Source of the DNA: a bacterium
Lineage (GTDB): Bacteria; Zhuqueibacterota; Zhuqueibacteria; Residuimicrobiales; Oceaniaggregativiventaceae
Assembly: GCA_029565675.1 (NCBI GenBank)
Contig: JAKQNP010000010.1
Coordinates: 1-55,669 of the forward strand
Direction: 5' to 3'
DNA length: 55,669 nucleotides
The notes beneath the pieces were generated by a model, which did not search any database, was not told the origin of the DNA, and saw only the letters and a list, made by a program, of their open reading frames with translations. This document shows, in pieces, positions 12,746-31,733 of this stretch. The translations under genes were made by a program, and so were the position numbers. Every line of letters starts with the position of its first letter. Positions within the stretch are counted from its first letter, which is position 1.

Positions 12746-12760
12746 CCTCCTATTCTATGA

Positions 12761-12922
12761 CACTCGTGTCCCATCTTCAGATGGGACACCTTTCACCAAA
12801 TCTAACAATATCTGAAAGTTGTAACGATTTTCATCTAGTATCGATTTGAATGGCATCCGATTATTTTGTCGCTGTAATTATTAGAGTTAAGTTGGGCGGT
12901 GTCCCTTGTTGGGACACCAGTG
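12761..12922. mobile_element. 162-bp MITE-like element, copy A
   Basis: Terminal inverted repeats of 12 bp (CACTCGTGTCCC and the complement of CACTGGTGTCCC, one mismatch) bound a non-coding, AT-rich interior. The element is flanked by ATTCTATGA on the left and ATTCTACGA on the right, a 9-bp target duplication with one mismatch. A second copy of equal length lies at 31557-31718. Each end can also fold into a local hairpin. No transposase is encoded, so it must be mobilised in trans. Confidence 0.85.
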
Positions 12923-12969
12923 ATTCTACGACAGCGTTGGTTTCGCTCCCCGGATTAGGAGCAGTTTGA

Positions 12970-14964: not shown

Positions 14965-15261
14965 GCGCTTGTTCCTCAAAAAGGTATCGCCCCCTGCAGG
15001 GGCTCTAAACATCTTTGGCCTCTCTCGCTTGCGAAAATCTGCAACAGCCCGCAACAGCAATCAAACAGAACTCCGCATCCCGGCTTGTTGCGGAACAGTC
15101 ATTCTTGTGCGATCAAAGATATCAAAAAGCGGGGTGAAAAGCAAAAATAAAAGAGCAAGATGTGAATTATTATGTTTGGTGTGATGGCTGCCAATCACCA
15201 TCCCGCAGGGGCAAGCCCTGCGGGGATGGGGGCAATAGATTTCCAACTATCCAAAACCTGT

Positions 15262-15709
15262 CGCCCCCTGCGGGGGCTTGGGGCTTTCAGCCCTCTTGCT
15301 TTCCACGGGCTCACGCCCGTGGCCAATATCCGACGCCCCCTGCGGGGGCTTGGGGCTTCCAGCCCTCTTGCTTTCCACGGGCTCACGCCCGTGGCCAATA
15401 TCCGTCGCCCCCTGCGGGGGCTTGGGGCTTCCAGCCCTCTTGCTTTCCACGGGCTCACGCCCGTGGCCAATATCCGACGCCCCCTGCGGGGGCTTGGGGC
15501 TTCCAGCCCTCTTGCTTTCCACGGGCTCACGCCCGTGGCCAATATCCGACGCCCCCTGCGGGGGCTTGGGGCTTTCAGCCCTCTTGCTTTCCACGGGCTC
15601 ACGCCCGTGGCTAATATCCGACGCCCCCTGCGGGGGCTTGGGGCTTTGGGCCATCTCGCGTTCCACGGGCTCGCGCCCGTGGCTAGAATCTATCGCCCCC
15701 TGCGGGGGC
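15262..15709. repeat. 72-bp tandem repeat array
   Basis: Units start at 15262, 15334, 15406, 15478, 15550, 15622 and 15694 (the last partial), exactly 72 bp apart. Each unit has two hairpins, GCCCCCTGCGGGGGC and one made of CCACGGGC/GCCCGTGG arms. The period is a multiple of three and stop codons are absent, so long artificial reading frames of 24-residue repeats appear on both strands. Units differ by only a few bases, suggesting recent expansion. Confidence 0.9.
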
Positions 15710-15753
15710 TCAATCATGAGAGTGCAAAATTGACTGGCTTTGGAGTTTGGGCC

Positions 15754-15821
15754 GTCCCGTCAGGGACGCGATATTTATAGCAACCGATCATGTGATTCTA
15801 TCCCGCGTCCCTTTAGGGACG
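15754..15821. repeat. Paired GTCCC/GGGAC hairpin repeat, copy 2
   Basis: GTCCC-GTCA-GGGAC lies at 15754-15767 and GTCCC-TTTA-GGGAC at 15807-15820, with ATATTTATAGCAA between them. It forms the right end of the left composite repeat. Confidence 0.75.
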
Positions 15822-15835
15822 CCATATGCAGAGCA

Positions 15836-16044: not shown

Positions 16045-17919
16045 CTATTGATGGATTTTATAATTCGCGGTGCGGATCAGCTCGTCCTTGCTCCATGCAT
16101 TGGGCTGCCAGGCGCGCACATAGATGAGCGGGTCCGTTTCGCGAAAATCGATGAGCAGAAACAGATAGCCTTCGTCCGCATAGGTAGTGGATGCATAGCT
16201 CTGCCGCATTTCCACCCCATAGACGCTGTCCTGGGTGTTCTTTTTGACTATATCAAAGGTACTGAAATCGAGTGAGATATCCTGATTTTGAGTAAAAATC
16301 TGTTTCTGGCGCTCCAGATAGAGTTGTTTGCTGAGGCGAAGATATTCATGGTCTGGCTGAGCGCCCAGTTTTTCATAGCGAACGACATTTTCGGCTAGTT
16401 TGCGCCGTTCCAGTTTGCGGCCGACAATAATGATGGCGTCCTCGGCAAACATCAAATCCACGGTGGGCAAATCGCGTGTCAAGTATGCGGTGCGGTATTT
16501 TTCCAAAAACTTGATGATCTGCTGCCGGTTTCTCCAATCTGCACCGATCTTTGCCTGGCGGACAAAATGCTGATAAAGGTTTTCGGTGATGCACACATTG
16601 AGATCGCAGAGCTTGCCTTCCGGAGTGAAATCGAGCGTCAGGTATTCGGTGCTCTCCTTGTTCAGCGTGGGATAGCGGTGCAGCATGCGGATGCGCCGCA
16701 ACTCCCAGCCGTCTGCAGTTCGGGTCAGCGCAGCGGCTATGTTCTGGTCGAGCGGCCGCGGGCGGTTGTACTTGAGGTAATCGGCGATCTTGACCGCCAA
16801 AAAATCATCGCTGGCAAAGGCGTGTCTGGCACCGGCCGGATCGCCGGCAGCGACGACATCGAGGAATTTTCGCACCTGGTCAAGAATAAGCGGTGCTACG
16901 TCAACGTCCTCGGTAAAATCCAGTTTGACGGCAAATGTGCCCGGCGAAACGCTGCGGATTAGGGCGCGCACGGGCGTGCTGTTTGGCACAGGTGACTCAT
17001 TATCCTCGTTCGGTTCAACCACGGCCGCATCATCTGCGGTGGAGAAGAGGCGCACCTTGTGCTGGCCGGTGAATTCGGGTTTGATCACGAGATCCCACAG
17101 GGTGGCGACGCTCTGGATTTCATTGCGCGATTCATAATAGGCATATTTGGGCTGCACCTTGATCTCGGCAAAATGGACAGCTGCGCCCAACAGTTGAAAG
17201 GCGGCCCGGCCGTCCCGGCCGCTGACCGTCACCTGGCGGCTGCCGTCCCAAAAGGTAAAATCGAGAGTCGACACCGGCCGACCGCCATAGAGGATCTCCA
17301 CCATCACCTCGCGTTCCTGCGGCGAAATGTCCCGGGCGGAAATGAAACGAAAGGCAAGATCGGAGACGAGGCGGTCGATGCGCAGCGGGATTTCAGTGGT
17401 ATAGTTGATGCCGTTGTGGACCACAAGTTGATCCGGCAGAGAATTGATCAGTATGGCAACGAAATAATAATATTTCAATGCTTGAGCCAGATGCAGTTCC
17501 TCAGCCAGAGCATTCGCTTTGGCAGCCATCTCGGCAATCAGCTGTTTGCGCTCCGCGAAAATCTGTTCCACCTGGGATTTTTTCAGATAGACGAAAACCT
17601 CGTACTTGTTTTCGGCGAGCAACCGGGGCGGCAGTTGTTCGACATTTTTCAATGTGGCCATGGTATGGGTCTTGACGATACTCTCGACCTTTTCCTGATA
17701 GTTCTGTTCTTTTTCGGCGACAACGCGCTCGAAAGAACTCGAAACCTGCATTGCGATCATTTTGCACAGGTTATCAGCGGCCAGATTGAGTGCCTCAGCA
17801 ACAGTGGTGGCTTCGCCCGAGCCATAGTAATAGTCACCTGATCGGATGATCAGCTCTTTTTCTGCCGCTGACAATTGGCAACAGCCGAGCAACAGCAGTG
17901 TCAAAATAACTCTTTGCAT
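16045..17919 (-). CDS. LPP20-like secreted or lipid-anchored protein downstream of the DGR RT
   Basis: The 624-residue protein starts at ATG 17919, preceded by GGAGG six bases upstream. Its signal peptide MQRVILTLLLLGCCQLSA carries LLGC, a possible lipobox. Residues about 15-130 resemble LPP20-type lipoproteins: a GSGEATTVAEALNLAADNLCKMIAMQV helix, then YEVFVYLKKSQVEQIF. The rest has a beta-rich middle (VMVEILYGGRPVSTLDFTFWDG), a stretch like NTF2-type folds (FLEKYRTAYLTRDLPTVDLMFAEDAIIIVG) and no recognisable catalytic motif. It lies 110 bp after the RT stop in the same direction and inside the bracketing repeats, so it may be part of the DGR transcript and act with the variable protein at the envelope. 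That link is inference. Confidence 0.65.
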   Translation of the reverse strand: MQRVILTLLLLGCCQLSAAEKELIIRSGDYYYGSGEATTVAEALNLAADNLCKMIAMQVSSSFERVVAEKEQNYQEKVESIVKTHTMATLKNVEQLPPRLLAENKYEVFVYLKKSQVEQIFAERKQLIAEMAAKANALAEELHLAQALKYYYFVAILINSLPDQLVVHNGINYTTEIPLRIDRLVSDLAFRFISARDISPQEREVMVEILYGGRPVSTLDFTFWDGSRQVTVSGRDGRAAFQLLGAAVHFAEIKVQPKYAYYESRNEIQSVATLWDLVIKPEFTGQHKVRLFSTADDAAVVEPNEDNESPVPNSTPVRALIRSVSPGTFAVKLDFTEDVDVAPLILDQVRKFLDVVAAGDPAGARHAFASDDFLAVKIADYLKYNRPRPLDQNIAAALTRTADGWELRRIRMLHRYPTLNKESTEYLTLDFTPEGKLCDLNVCITENLYQHFVRQAKIGADWRNRQQIIKFLEKYRTAYLTRDLPTVDLMFAEDAIIIVGRKLERRKLAENVVRYEKLGAQPDHEYLRLSKQLYLERQKQIFTQNQDISLDFSTFDIVKKNTQDSVYGVEMRQSYASTTYADEGYLFLLIDFRETDPLIYVRAWQPNAWSKDELIRTANYKIHQ

Positions 17920-18029
17920 TCCGATCCTCCACCAGCTGGTCATTTTTTGGTCCGCATCAAGATATCGAAAAGCTGCAGCAAAAGCAAAAATAAAAGCACC
18001 TGGGTGTAAAAAGTTGATCTGGTTTGGCT

Positions 18030-19082
18030 TTAAATCAAGTCACATCCTGAAAATATCTTTTTCCGCACCCGAAAACTGTCAGCCTGAATCGCATGTCCCA
18101 GCCAACCCGAAATGGACAGCCGAATTGTCTGCAAATCGATTGCACCCTTTTCATACTCGTGTTTCATCTTTTCTAAACGACGGCGAAAACGCAGGATATT
18201 TTCCTTTGGCAATATCCGATGATATGGAAAAATTCGATAGCCAAGAAAGGCAAAACCGCAACGAACCGGCATCACCTGGAATTTATTGGGGTGAATAATC
18301 AGGCGATACCGCAATAATAAGGACTTGATCGCCTTCCCCCATTCCCAGAGTTCTTTTTTACTTCTACCAAAAACTATAAAATCATCAACATAGCGAATGT
18401 AACCCGGACAGCGCAAATCTTCTTTGACAAAATGATCGAGTGGATTGAGGTACACATTGGCAAAAAATTGCGAGGTTTGATTGCCGATCGGCAATCCGCG
18501 CCGCCTATCCAAGGGTGTAAACAGATTGTCTCCTGGGAAATAACAAAGACAGAATTCCTGTTCATTGCTGCCGTCGATAATCCGGTCGGCAAGCCACAGC
18601 ACATCGCGATCTTTGATCCTGCGTCGAATTAGATTTTTTAAAATCTGGTGATCGATGCTGGCAAAGTACTTGCGGATATCGCACTTGAGAACATAGGTGA
18701 ATTGTGCTGCATAGTGCGAACATCTTTTGACGGCAGCATGTACCCCTTTGCATTTGCGATTGGCATAGGAATCAAAGATAAATCCGGGTTCAAACAGCGG
18801 CTCGAGGATATTGCACAGGGCATGATGCACCACGCGATCCCGAAATGGAGCGGCCGAAATCATCCGCGTCTTTTTTTCATAGACGAAAAATGTTCGATAG
18901 CCTCCAGGCCGATACTGTTTATTCTTAAGATCGGCTTGCAGGCGAAACAGCTCTTCTTCCTGACGGAAGGCATAATCGGCGCAATCCGTGCGCTGTTTTT
19001 TACCCAGCAATGCTTTGTGGAAAGCCAAATACAGATTGTCAAATTCGACCAGGCGGTCGAACAGATTTCCTGTTCTCTTCAT
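18030..19082 (-). CDS. DGR-type reverse transcriptase
   Basis: This 350-residue protein is a reverse transcriptase of the diversity-generating retroelement class. Visible motifs are RMISAAPFRDRVVHHAL (residues 73-89), the first catalytic Asp in KCDIRKYFASID (Asp135), GLPIGNQTSQFFANVYLNPLDHFV (196-219) and YVDD at 231-234. The segment IGNQTSQ fits the (I/V/L)GxxxSQ motif typical of DGR enzymes; group II intron and retron RTs differ there. No maturase or endonuclease domain follows, and the length is normal for the class. It copies the TR-containing RNA into cDNA with errors at adenines. It follows avd and TR with a 230-nt spacer that probably forms part of the priming RNA. Confidence 0.93.
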   Translation of the reverse strand: MKRTGNLFDRLVEFDNLYLAFHKALLGKKQRTDCADYAFRQEEELFRLQADLKNKQYRPGGYRTFFVYEKKTRMISAAPFRDRVVHHALCNILEPLFEPGFIFDSYANRKCKGVHAAVKRCSHYAAQFTYVLKCDIRKYFASIDHQILKNLIRRRIKDRDVLWLADRIIDGSNEQEFCLCYFPGDNLFTPLDRRRGLPIGNQTSQFFANVYLNPLDHFVKEDLRCPGYIRYVDDFIVFGRSKKELWEWGKAIKSLLLRYRLIIHPNKFQVMPVRCGFAFLGYRIFPYHRILPKENILRFRRRLEKMKHEYEKGAIDLQTIRLSISGWLGHAIQADSFRVRKKIFSGCDLI

Positions 19083-19312: not shown

Positions 19313-19436
19313 ACTGCGCAGGGCGGGCCACCCGGAACCCGTTGTTGTTGTTCCTGTTGTCGGGGTTATTCCTGTTGCGATTGGAAGCGCGGCAATTGTT
19401 TGGATTGTTGTTCCACGAGCCGCCGCGCAGCACCCG
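19313..19436 (-). repeat. DGR template repeat (TR)
   Basis: These 124 bp align without gaps to VR at 19888-20011. On the coding strand TR has 33 adenines, mostly in AAC and AAT codons, so it would read as [27 protein letters not shown] in the frame of the target. All 22 TR/VR differences fall on these adenines. TR lies 17 nt after the avd stop and 230 nt before the RT start. It serves as an RNA template, not as a gene. Confidence 0.95.
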
Positions 19437-19452: not shown

Positions 19453-19791
19453 CTATTCCCTCCTGGCTCGCTTGAGCCAAGCTCCCAAAAGATTGCCGAT
19501 CTCAACCGACATCCGCGCGACGTGTTCGAACTGGCCGAGGGACAGCAATTTCATATCGCGACACAGGCGCAAATGGTGACGCAATTTTTCCATCTCGATG
19601 TCGGCCTGTATGAGGTCGACTTTGGCTTCACCACGTTTGACTGCAGCGATCAGATATTCGTAAAAATCCAGCGCGCTGTTTTGCACCCGCAGTGCCATCA
19701 CAAAACGCTGCGATTTTGGGAACTTGAGCGTCGTTGCCAAAAGCCAGACCAGCAGATCGTGGGTTTTCAAAAAAATAGGCGACTCTTTCAT
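19453..19791 (-). CDS. Avd, DGR accessory variability determinant
   Basis: This 112-residue protein matches the helical-bundle Avd family. Diagnostic segments are [29 protein letters not shown] (residues 7-35), [12 protein letters not shown] (40-51), [30 protein letters not shown] (64-93) and [11 protein letters not shown] (97-107). Avd forms a basic pentameric barrel that binds the RT and nucleic acid and is needed for mutagenic retrohoming. The start at 19791 is chosen because homology begins there; an ATA-less upstream extension to 19872 would cover the hairpin region and is not protein-like. It sits between VR and TR, the commonest DGR order. Confidence 0.92.
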
Positions 19792-19815: not shown

Positions 19816-19834
19816 CCGGGGGCTGCGCCCCCGG
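19816..19834 (-). promoter_or_regulatory. GC hairpin downstream of VR
   Basis: CCGGGGGC and GCCCCCGG form a perfect 8-bp stem with the loop TGC, about 52 bp after the end of VR and just before avd. In the Bordetella phage DGR, a similar 8-bp GC-rich hairpin beyond the target gene stop aids retrohoming. The same role here is inferred from position and shape; the distance is larger than in the phage. Confidence 0.5.
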
Positions 19835-19885
19835 ACCCCGGACAGAAAACAGAAAACCAGAAAACAGATCACAGAAACTCAAACC

Positions 19886-22078
19886 TCACTGCGCAGGGCG
19901 GGCCACCCGGAACCCGATGCTGCCGGACCTGCCGTCGGGGTTATACCAGGCGCGACTGGAAGCGCGGCAATCGAGCGGACTGCCGCCCCACGAGCCGCCG
20001 CGCAGCACCCGATACTCTCCCGAAGCCGGCCCCTGCGGGTCGCGCGACGAACTCTCTTGGTAATAATCACTGGCATACCAGTCCGCGCACCATTCCCACA
20101 CATTGCCGCTCATATCGTATAACCCCAGTGCATTGGCCTTTTTGCCGGCAACCGCATGAGTTGTACGGCCGCTGTTGCTGTTGTACCAGGCATAATCGCC
20201 GAGTTGGCTTTCAATGCTGGTCCCGCTCCATTTGACTTTTTTACCCCCTTCCCGCGCCGCATACTCCCACTCCGCCTCGATCGGTAGCCGCAATCCCGCC
20301 CATTTGCAGAACGCCGTTGCATCTTTCCAAGTGACTCTCACAATCGGATGGTTATCCTGCCAACCCCAGGATGGCGCATCAGGCATCGAACGGCCGGTGG
20401 CGCTGCAAAACGCCCGGTATTGCCCCACCGTCACCTCGGTTTTGCCCAGATAGAAATCGCCTACCGTCACCCGGTGCACCGGCTTTTCATCATCCTGCCC
20501 ATCGCCAAAGGTGTCGCCCATGTCAAAGCTGCCGCCCCTGACCAGAACAAACTCGATGCCGGTTTTGGGGTCGCGCCAGGTCCCGGTCGCCGAACCAGCC
20601 GCCGGCGGCGATACCGCCACGACCGCCTTTTCCAGCGTCACGCTGCGGGTGAGCTTTTCCCCTTCCTTTAAAACCAGCGTCTCCTGTTTGTCCGCATAGC
20701 CGCTCAGGCTCACCTTGAGCGTGTAGCTCCCCACCGGCACATCGCTGAAACTCCTGGCGCCCACTGAGGTAAAACTCTCTCCCGCGTCGCCGCGCAGCTC
20801 CACTTTGGCGTCGAACGGCACCACCGCCACCTGGATCGTGCCCGTCGGCACCTGCGGCAGCAGCTCCACCGTCTCGACTGCGCCTTTGCGCAGGGTCAAA
20901 CGCCGCTCCACTGGCAGCGCCTTGGCCATCTCGGCGCGCAACACCACCACCGACGGCTCCAGCCGGATGTTTTCCAGCTGCTCCACCTTGCTGCCGTTCA
21001 GATAGACCGTGGCGCCCGGTCGCGTGCGAATGGTCAACACGGCAAAACTCGCCTCGCTGACCAGTTCGACCGTTTTCTTCTCCCCCCGCGCCAGCGCGAT
21101 CTCTTGCTCGACGGTCTCGTAATGCGCGGATTTGGCCTTGATGCGATAGGTCCCGGGCGCCAGCCTTTGAAAGGTGTGCGGAGTCTGGACGTTTTGCGCC
21201 CGGTCGTTCAAATGGATTTCCAGACTGCTCTGCGGACGGCTGGCGATCGTCAATTCGCCGAAATCGGGCTGCAGGGAAAACCGCTTGCGGCCCATAGCCG
21301 GCTGAATGTCGAGATAATCCTCATAGGGCACATACCACTCTTTTTCGATGCGAATGGCGTAACGGCCGCTGGCATAAAAACTGCTCACCGGCGTCGTGCC
21401 CAGTTTCAAGCCATCCAGATAGACCAACGCGCCCGACGGCTCGCTCTCGATCTGAATATTGACTTCCTGTTTGATGTTGAGGGTATATTCGAAAAAGTTG
21501 TTTTTCTCGTCCGCATAGATGGTGGTGTTCATCGGTTCGTAACCCGGCTTGATCAGCCGCAGCGTGTGGTTGCCGACGCTCACCGTGTGCTTTTTTTCTT
21601 CGCCGCGGCTGACCTCATCGATAAAAACCTCGGCACCCGGCGGGTTCGTGAGAACGGTGACCGCGACCTCGCCCGGTTTGGCATCGCCGGCCACCTTGAT
21701 CTCCCAGATCCGCCTTTCCTGCAAAGCGATGCCCACCTCGGAGAGAATGAGCTTGAGCGGTTCAAAGCCGCTGTGAAAAATCTGCAGCACCCGCTCGTCG
21801 GGCGACAGGTAGACAAGATCCTGGCCCGGCTGGTCATCCACCTTGACCACGTTGTTGTAGGAATCGTACTTGAATCCCTCCATGTCCGAGACCACCTTGA
21901 CGGCGCTGCAAATGCGGCCGTTGGCGTCGAGATTGGAAGCGCCGACAAATTCGCTCTCCAAAAGCTCGGGACGGTCGACCAGGCGCAACTGGTTCAACTG
22001 CGCCCCACAAGGCGAGACAAAAGTGAACAGCATAACAACAAGCAAAAAGCAAGGCAGGAGTCTGATCGTTCCGTTCAT
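19886..22078 (-). CDS. DGR variable protein: PEGA repeats plus FGE/C-type-lectin domain
   Basis: This 730-residue protein is the target of the DGR. A Sec signal peptide (residues 1-27, ending CGAQ) is followed by an uncharacterised domain (about 30-135). Five PEGA-like repeats follow at about 139-200, 205-268, 275-340, 345-406 and 412-483; examples are TNPPGAEVFIDEV and ESEPSGALVYLDGLKLG. A formylglycine-generating-enzyme-like domain fills 500-730, with FVLVRGGSFDMGD, LRLPIEAEWEYAAR, LGLYDMSGNVWEWCADWY and [10 protein letters not shown] covers residues 690-730, where this fold displays its ligand-binding surface, so the protein is a probable surface receptor with a variable tip, not a sulfatase activator. 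The gene opens the DGR operon. Fourteen residues differ from the TR translation. Confidence 0.93.
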   Translation of the reverse strand: MNGTIRLLPCFLLVVMLFTFVSPCGAQLNQLRLVDRPELLESEFVGASNLDANGRICSAVKVVSDMEGFKYDSYNNVVKVDDQPGQDLVYLSPDERVLQIFHSGFEPLKLILSEVGIALQERRIWEIKVAGDAKPGEVAVTVLTNPPGAEVFIDEVSRGEEKKHTVSVGNHTLRLIKPGYEPMNTTIYADEKNNFFEYTLNIKQEVNIQIESEPSGALVYLDGLKLGTTPVSSFYASGRYAIRIEKEWYVPYEDYLDIQPAMGRKRFSLQPDFGELTIASRPQSSLEIHLNDRAQNVQTPHTFQRLAPGTYRIKAKSAHYETVEQEIALARGEKKTVELVSEASFAVLTIRTRPGATVYLNGSKVEQLENIRLEPSVVVLRAEMAKALPVERRLTLRKGAVETVELLPQVPTGTIQVAVVPFDAKVELRGDAGESFTSVGARSFSDVPVGSYTLKVSLSGYADKQETLVLKEGEKLTRSVTLEKAVVAVSPPAAGSATGTWRDPKTGIEFVLVRGGSFDMGDTFGDGQDDEKPVHRVTVGDFYLGKTEVTVGQYRAFCSATGRSMPDAPSWGWQDNHPIVRVTWKDATAFCKWAGLRLPIEAEWEYAAREGGKKVKWSGTSIESQLGDYAWYNSNSGRTTHAVAGKKANALGLYDMSGNVWEWCADWYASDYYQESSSRDPQGPASGEYRVLRGGSWGGSPLDCRASSRAWYNPDGRSGSIGFRVARPAQ
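19888..20011 (-). repeat. DGR variable repeat (VR)
   Basis: VR encodes residues 690-730 of the target protein plus the first base of its stop codon. Substitutions from TR change residues 698-700, 702, 703, 708, 710-712, 716 and 718-721, all in the lectin-fold tip. Scaffold residues ([20 protein letters not shown]) are kept. The last 29 bp (19888-19916) are identical to TR, GC-rich and almost free of adenine on the coding strand, as expected for the mutagenic-homing start region. Confidence 0.95.
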
Positions 22079-22244: not shown

Positions 22245-22527
22245 CAATCACCATCCCGCAGGGACAAGCCCTGCGGGATGGGGGCAATAGATTTCCAACT
22301 ATCCAAAACCTGTCGCCCCCTGCGGGGGCTTGGGGCTTTCAGCCCTCTTGCTTTCCACAGGCTCGCGCCCGTGGCCAATATCCGACGCCCCCTGCGGGGG
22401 CTCAATCATGCGAGTGCATAATTGACTGGCTTTGGCGTTTGGACCGTCCCGTCAGGGACGGGATATTTATAGCAAACGATCACCCGATTCTATCCCGCGT
22501 CCCTTTAGGGACGCCATATGCAGAGCA
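22245..22527. repeat. Composite repeat, right copy (single unit)
   Basis: This has the same order and orientation as 15192-15835, but only one 72-bp unit (22314-22385). It ends with the paired GTCCC/GGGAC hairpins at 22446-22512. With the left copy it brackets the DGR and the LPP20-like gene as direct repeats. Confidence 0.85.
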
Positions 22528-31510: not shown

Positions 31511-31556
31511 CAAAGCTGCCTCATGTTAATCCAAACCATCAACAATCACCCTCTGC

Positions 31557-31718
31557 CACTCGTGTCCCATCGTCAGATGGGACACCTTTCACCAAATCTA
31601 ACAATATCTTAAACTTGTAATGATTTTGGTCTAGTATCGATTTGAATGGTATCCGATTAAATTATCGCTGTAATTATTAGAGTTAAGTTGGGCGGTGTCC
31701 CTTGTTGGGATACCAGTG
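31557..31718. mobile_element. 162-bp MITE-like element, copy B
   Basis: It has the same length as copy A at 12761-12922 and about 90 per cent identity by eye, with the tips CACTCGTGTCCC and GGGATACCAGTG. It is flanked by perfect 9-bp direct repeats ACCCTCTGC at 31548-31556 and 31719-31727, clear proof of insertion. It sits between two genes without disrupting either. Confidence 0.88.
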
Positions 31719-31733
31719 ACCCTCTGCAGACGA

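Follow-up and report, generated by a model that had tools for sequence, protein, structure and literature searches.

A cellular DGR probably diversifies the binding surface of a TvpA-like receptor exported on a modular carrier

To our knowledge, the N-terminal parts of most cellular DGR targets have escaped recognition, and we know of no account of how their tips are recruited to carriers. The nearest described relative of the target reported here is TvpA of Treponema denticola (2Y3C), which shares with it an FGE-fold C-type-lectin tip, a C-terminal VR and adenine-specific variation that falls mainly on Asn codons. The solved structure of TvpA comprises the lectin domain only; the PEGA stalk and the N-terminal domain (residues 27-135) belong to our protein. 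Targets in T. denticola are mostly predicted lipoproteins and their accessory gene is HRDC (PMC4891356), whereas the accessory here is Avd. Mtd, from the DGR of phage BPP-1, likewise combines a C-type-lectin fold bearing the VR with TR, RT and avd. Mtd is a phage tail protein, however; our target starts with a signal peptide, and its gene is part of a cellular operon.

Also comparable are the cellular 'membrane-bound' DGR targets (Roux 2021, PMC8144416), which like ours are multi-domain exported proteins with a C-terminal VR. Modularity was proposed for that class; here a single genome displays it, since one stalk occurs with two types of tip and a conversion tract marks the place where they join. 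FISUMP (Fib_succ_major), a known DGR target domain (PMC4159848), tips stalks in this genome that are paralogous to our target, but unlike the published FISUMP targets these paralogues have no TR that we could find. The targets of NACHT/STAND conflict-system DGRs (PMC10907252) are NTPase sensors, whereas ours is a stalk predicted to be exported. An RT 54% identical to ours nevertheless lies by a NACHT-domain target region in genome G038, the only other genome with a close RT among the eight searched, so this group of RTs works on widely different kinds of target. The G038 locus (contig 96, L189:4863-8609) has a 119-nt TR/VR pair that differs at 13 positions, 11 of them at A, and both its NACHT-domain target and its RT are interrupted by stops.

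The window analysed is a 55,669-nucleotide stretch of bacterial DNA, and every window feature described below lies on its minus strand, except for the 72-nt repeats and the 169-nt direct repeat pair, to which no strand is assigned. The DGR target gene (19886..22078) encodes 730 amino acids in an intact frame. The initial annotation had read it as a signal peptide, five PEGA-like repeats and a C-terminal FGE/C-type-lectin domain carrying the VR, and inspection of the sequence, Pfam and a profile made from the protein's own repeats bear this layout out. The signal peptide (residues 1-26, 22001..22078) has its predicted cleavage site near GAQ/L, placed from the sequence and from the conserved '(F/G)AQ' end of its relatives; the model gives it a helix at residues 9-18 with low pLDDT. 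Conserved ends of this kind ('GAQ', 'FAQ') suggest that the leader is cleaved by signal peptidase I and is not that of a lipoprotein. The protein has no transmembrane segment, lipobox or sorting signal that fixes its location.

Residues 27-135 (21674..22000) form an N-terminal domain. It has no Pfam match, in keeping with the earlier remark that this part is not recognised. Predicted as a separate piece with its relatives, it is a confident beta-sandwich (AF2, mean pLDDT 90.3). Compared on its own with solved structures it has no obvious relative, the top matches reaching E 0.67 in Foldseek and Z 5.6 in VIA-align, which suggests that, as modelled, it shares with them just a common beta-sandwich arrangement. 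The PEGA repeats follow at residues ~137-201, 205-270, 273-345, 346-409 and 411-483 (20630..21670). Pfam detects PEGA at E 1.7e-41 (140 bits against a cut-off of 20.8), the protein's own profile counts five copies, and structure prediction upholds a PEGA fold, modelling five separate beta-sandwiches with pLDDT mostly 88-97. The full-length model combines a mean pLDDT of 91.7 with a pTM of 0.41, as expected of rigid domains on flexible joints.

The tip comprises residues 500-730 (19889..20581), with a Pfam FGE-sulfatase match over residues 509-727 (E 1.6e-60) and a sequence-based match to TvpA 2Y3C (E 1.5e-44). TvpA is also the best structural match of the tip model (497-729), with Z 32.6 and an rmsd of 2.0 over 224 residues at 40% identity; Mtd is among the other matches (Z 14.7). 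Residue 729 aligns with TvpA 329 and the VR alignment is ungapped, so the variable residues 698-721 correspond to TvpA 298-321, inside the TvpA VR (284-329). The variable residues of TvpA are reported to be exposed (PMC4891356). By analogy with that structure, the VR of our target should lie on an exposed, variable receptor face and not be buried, as the proposal of a displayed receptor implied.

What has varied is clear from the repeats themselves. The VR (residues 690-730, 124 nt, 19888..20011) is in frame and ends at the target's stop codon; the template repeat, TR, identified by its match to the VR, is also 124 nt long (19313..19436). The two align without gaps and differ at 22 positions, every one of them among the 33 adenines of the TR (P = 1.4e-16): 14 changes are A-to-G, five A-to-T and three A-to-C. 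Seventeen VR codons are changeable, enough by our computation for about 1e18 possible tips, and at 13 of them (residues 698-721) the amino acid differs from that of the TR. With every difference at a TR adenine and zero background mutations in 124 nt, the comparison argues for recent rewriting.

Target, avd, TR and RT stand in the canonical DGR order. The avd accessory gene (112 aa, 19453..19791) matches NCBIfam DivGenRetAVD with 85 bits against a cut-off of 80, and also bAvd; its true start is probably the ATG at 19791 rather than the GTG at 19872. The DGR-type reverse transcriptase (350 aa, 18030..19082) has the motif LPIGNQTSQ and matches RVT_1 (E 2.8e-23) and PHROG 1423 (E 5e-123). It is the sole RT of DGR type found in the genome; the two other RTs are distant (29% identity), one carrying the maturase domain of group II introns and the second unassigned. 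When IMG/VR was searched with the RT, 18 distant viral relatives were found (31-43%), none adjoining an FGE match.

A GC-rich hairpin with an 8-bp stem, CCGGGGGC-GCA-GCCCCCGG, lies at 19816..19834, ~53 nt past the VR; none of 100 shuffles gave its equal. Phage DGRs have a GC-rich hairpin with a GRNA loop 4-34 nt after the VR (PMC3240598). The window element departs from this form in its 3-nt loop as well as its distance. The same hairpin also follows a paralogous gene without a DGR (the C20 gene described below), where it has an 8-bp GC stem and a canonical GGCA loop 30 nt past the stop. The window hairpin is a candidate, either for a DGR target hairpin or for a repeat element.

How widely is this carrier found? 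A profile search with the 27-135 domain, run on 82 genomes of the phylum, returned 11 copies; five genomes hold them, and these belong to a single class. Every copy is tied to an FGE or FISUMP tip, so the N-terminal module always goes with a tip of C-type-lectin fold. In seven cases the tip is on the same protein: FGE in the window, in G003 (three genes) and in G025, and FISUMP in two paralogues from the window's own genome, on contigs C20 and C59. In the other four, one from G014 and three from G017, the N-terminal protein ends past its PEGA repeats in a hydrophobic helix that by eye looks transmembrane-like, and the tip is on the next gene, a large protein with a lipobox-like start that ends in FISUMP (three) or FGE (one). 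In this split system (L127, L128, L129 and L130), the long lipoprotein-like genes that follow the N-terminal domain, PEGA and TM-like helix carry BACON, PKD or Ig repeats before the FISUMP or FGE tip; L129 is seen as two overlapping frames and may be frame-shifted.

Only the window copy, among the 11, has a DGR beside it. The stalks of the two FISUMP-tipped paralogues are 57% and 52% identical to that of the window. Since the same genome holds this stalk with another lectin-like tip and no cassette, the tips appear to be interchangeable modules, FGE or FISUMP, on a modular carrier. Among 80 FGE relatives, sampled (not exhaustively) from genome contigs with their flanks, a related RT adjoins FGE at six loci, none of which has PEGA, and the other PEGA-FGE proteins of the sample have no RT in the fetched flanks. 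One relative from the FGE comparisons (L016:629-1339) has an Asn-rich C-terminus that reads like a TR. The literature we covered, which excludes most subscription papers, holds no description of a DGR target with PEGA architecture.

The carrier also has company. Downstream of the RT lies a gene of 632 codons (16045..17943) whose predicted exported product has weak Pfam matches to LPP20-like and NTF2-like (Cds6_C) domains. In G003 and G025 its homologues lie 3' of the genes that encode the N-terminal domain and an FGE tip. Another, on a Prevotella contig, adjoins a PEGA-FGE gene (E 3.9e-55); the N-terminal region encoded by that gene aligns weakly with the 27-135 domain (hhalign probability 75). 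From this recurrent neighbourhood we regard the LPP20/NTF2-like gene as a conserved operon partner of the carrier, and it offers a handle on function.

A second copy of the partner, 72% identical, lies in the same genome at the end of contig C1. C1 ends in 134 nt that exactly match the start of C20, and joining the contigs there puts this copy directly 3' of the C20 FISUMP stalk. The overlap sits in repeat-bearing sequence, so the adjacency is likely but not proven; C20 stalk and C1 partner likely make up a sister operon. Compared with it, the window shows homology over the stalk (20586-21991) and the partner (16045-18037), and the single large stretch without homology is the FGE tip with avd, TR and RT (20585-18038), in which just a 39-nt hairpin element has a counterpart. 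It is likely, on this comparison, that a FISUMP tip stands in the sister operon in place of the block of FGE tip plus DGR.

The joint between stalk and tip bears a mark of its own. Over the fifth PEGA repeat (residues 409-486, 20621..20855) the window and C20 genes are identical at 224 of 235 nt (95%), silent sites included, against 63% over the preceding 321 nt (Fisher P 9e-22). We read this tract as recent gene conversion at the stalk/tip joint. Elsewhere C20 and C59 are each other's closest relatives, and in PEGA5 they are not, which suggests that C20 received its PEGA5 from the FGE-type gene. Intragenic recombination has been proposed for DGR targets generally (Roux et al., PMC8144416), and a trace of it is visible in the aligned sequences of this pair. 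The FISUMP tip of the C20 gene (G000:C20:234-2336, L004) holds that gene's highest run of NNY codons (23/25, codons 632-661). No TR for it was found by DNA similarity across the genome, where the matches were the C59 paralogue and a FISUMP gene on C62. Given its NNY-rich codons and GGCA-loop hairpin, the C20 tip may be a former, second or remote DGR target.

We think it probable that a cellular DGR diversifies the surface with which an exported, TvpA-like receptor binds, and that this receptor sits on a modular carrier able to swap tips; ligand, location and activity we infer as follows. The RT, with Avd, would make cDNA from TR RNA, misreading it at A, and this cDNA would replace the VR, so that one constant stalk could bear as many as about 1e18 different tips. 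The signal peptide would export the stalk, which the N-terminal domain, the PEGA repeats and the partner protein would probably anchor in the periplasm or cell envelope, and the stalk would hold the tip out to ligands that vary, for example phages, other cells or surface polymers. PEGA domains are assumed to bind cell-wall or envelope polymers; this target may be displayed at the surface and bind the wall. Exchange of FGE and FISUMP tips would most likely proceed by recombination near the last PEGA repeat, and in the window operon the tip would bring its own mutator. The suggestion of a changeable receptor carried on a stalk is thus supported, within a larger picture in which the stalk is specialised for carrying tips, the tips appear exchangeable and a conserved partner gene shares the operon.

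Could the tip instead be an active formylglycine-generating or related enzyme? Its similarity to FGE enzymes is significant, and FGEs have two active-site, copper-binding cysteines. The first of them corresponds here to residue 699, which is Asn in the TR and Gly in the VR, and the second to Cys704; the catalytic site falls within the randomised segment. Because an active-site cysteine position is itself diversified, we rejected this reading as almost certainly wrong. A binding face could still have stopped changing: a relic DGR might once have diversified the tip and now be dead, leaving it as fixed as the tips of its relatives. We hold this to be improbable. The related DGR of G038, a genome of the same class, is broken by stops and the window hairpin is unusual, but the reading frames of RT, avd and target are all open and intact, and the VR differences are still confined to TR adenines, with no background mutations. 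Nor need the receptor face outward. Threat sensing has been proposed for some DGR targets in multicellular bacteria, periplasmic DGR targets are predicted in PMC10907252, and the TM-like helix after the PEGA repeats in G014 and G017 would suit a periplasmic sensor of envelope or internal threats. Such a sensor seems rather unlikely to us as against an outward-facing adhesin, however, since the G014 and G017 tips are on separate lipoprotein-like proteins with long BACON, PKD or Ig stalks, a layout that suits outward display, and the window protein has no signalling domain.

The history of the operon is more evenly poised. One possible reading, offered tentatively, is that the FGE tip with avd, TR and RT is a plug-in hypervariable tip cassette (~2.5 kb): recombination at the last PEGA repeat and in the intergenic repeat region would swap it for FISUMP tips in an operon whose stalk and partner are conserved. 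The FGE tree is poorly supported and does not show whether the window tip came from stalk relatives or from elsewhere. Alternatively, the sister operon may have lost its DGR, and the tip-plus-DGR block may never have been swapped in; this too is possible but doubtful. The hairpin that follows the sister gene, in canonical form, fits such a loss, as do the FGE tips paired with the partner gene in G003 and G025. Against it, the sister tip is FISUMP and shares homology with the C59 tip, not with FGE; even a loss would call for the tip to have been replaced at least once. If cassette swapping is right, tip-type switching and point hypermutation would be two layers of diversification on one exported receptor. 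Either way, a single genome pairs one presumably exported carrier with two kinds of lectin-type tip; their joint bears a recent conversion tract, and a mutator accompanies one tip only. With the window system, the modular recruitment that has been proposed for DGR targets can be put to a direct test.

Repeats surround the operon. An array of 72-nt repeats lies 3' of it (15179..15835) and includes a match to the Acido-Lenti-1 RNA (15591-15638), and repeat comparison places a further copy upstream of the target (22305..22527). These repeats have palindromic cores, and more copies occur upstream of the C20 stalk gene and on contigs C5, C25, C29 and C32. Another direct repeat pair, at 12755-12923 and 31551-31719, is 169 nt long and 92% identical, its members 18.8 kb apart.
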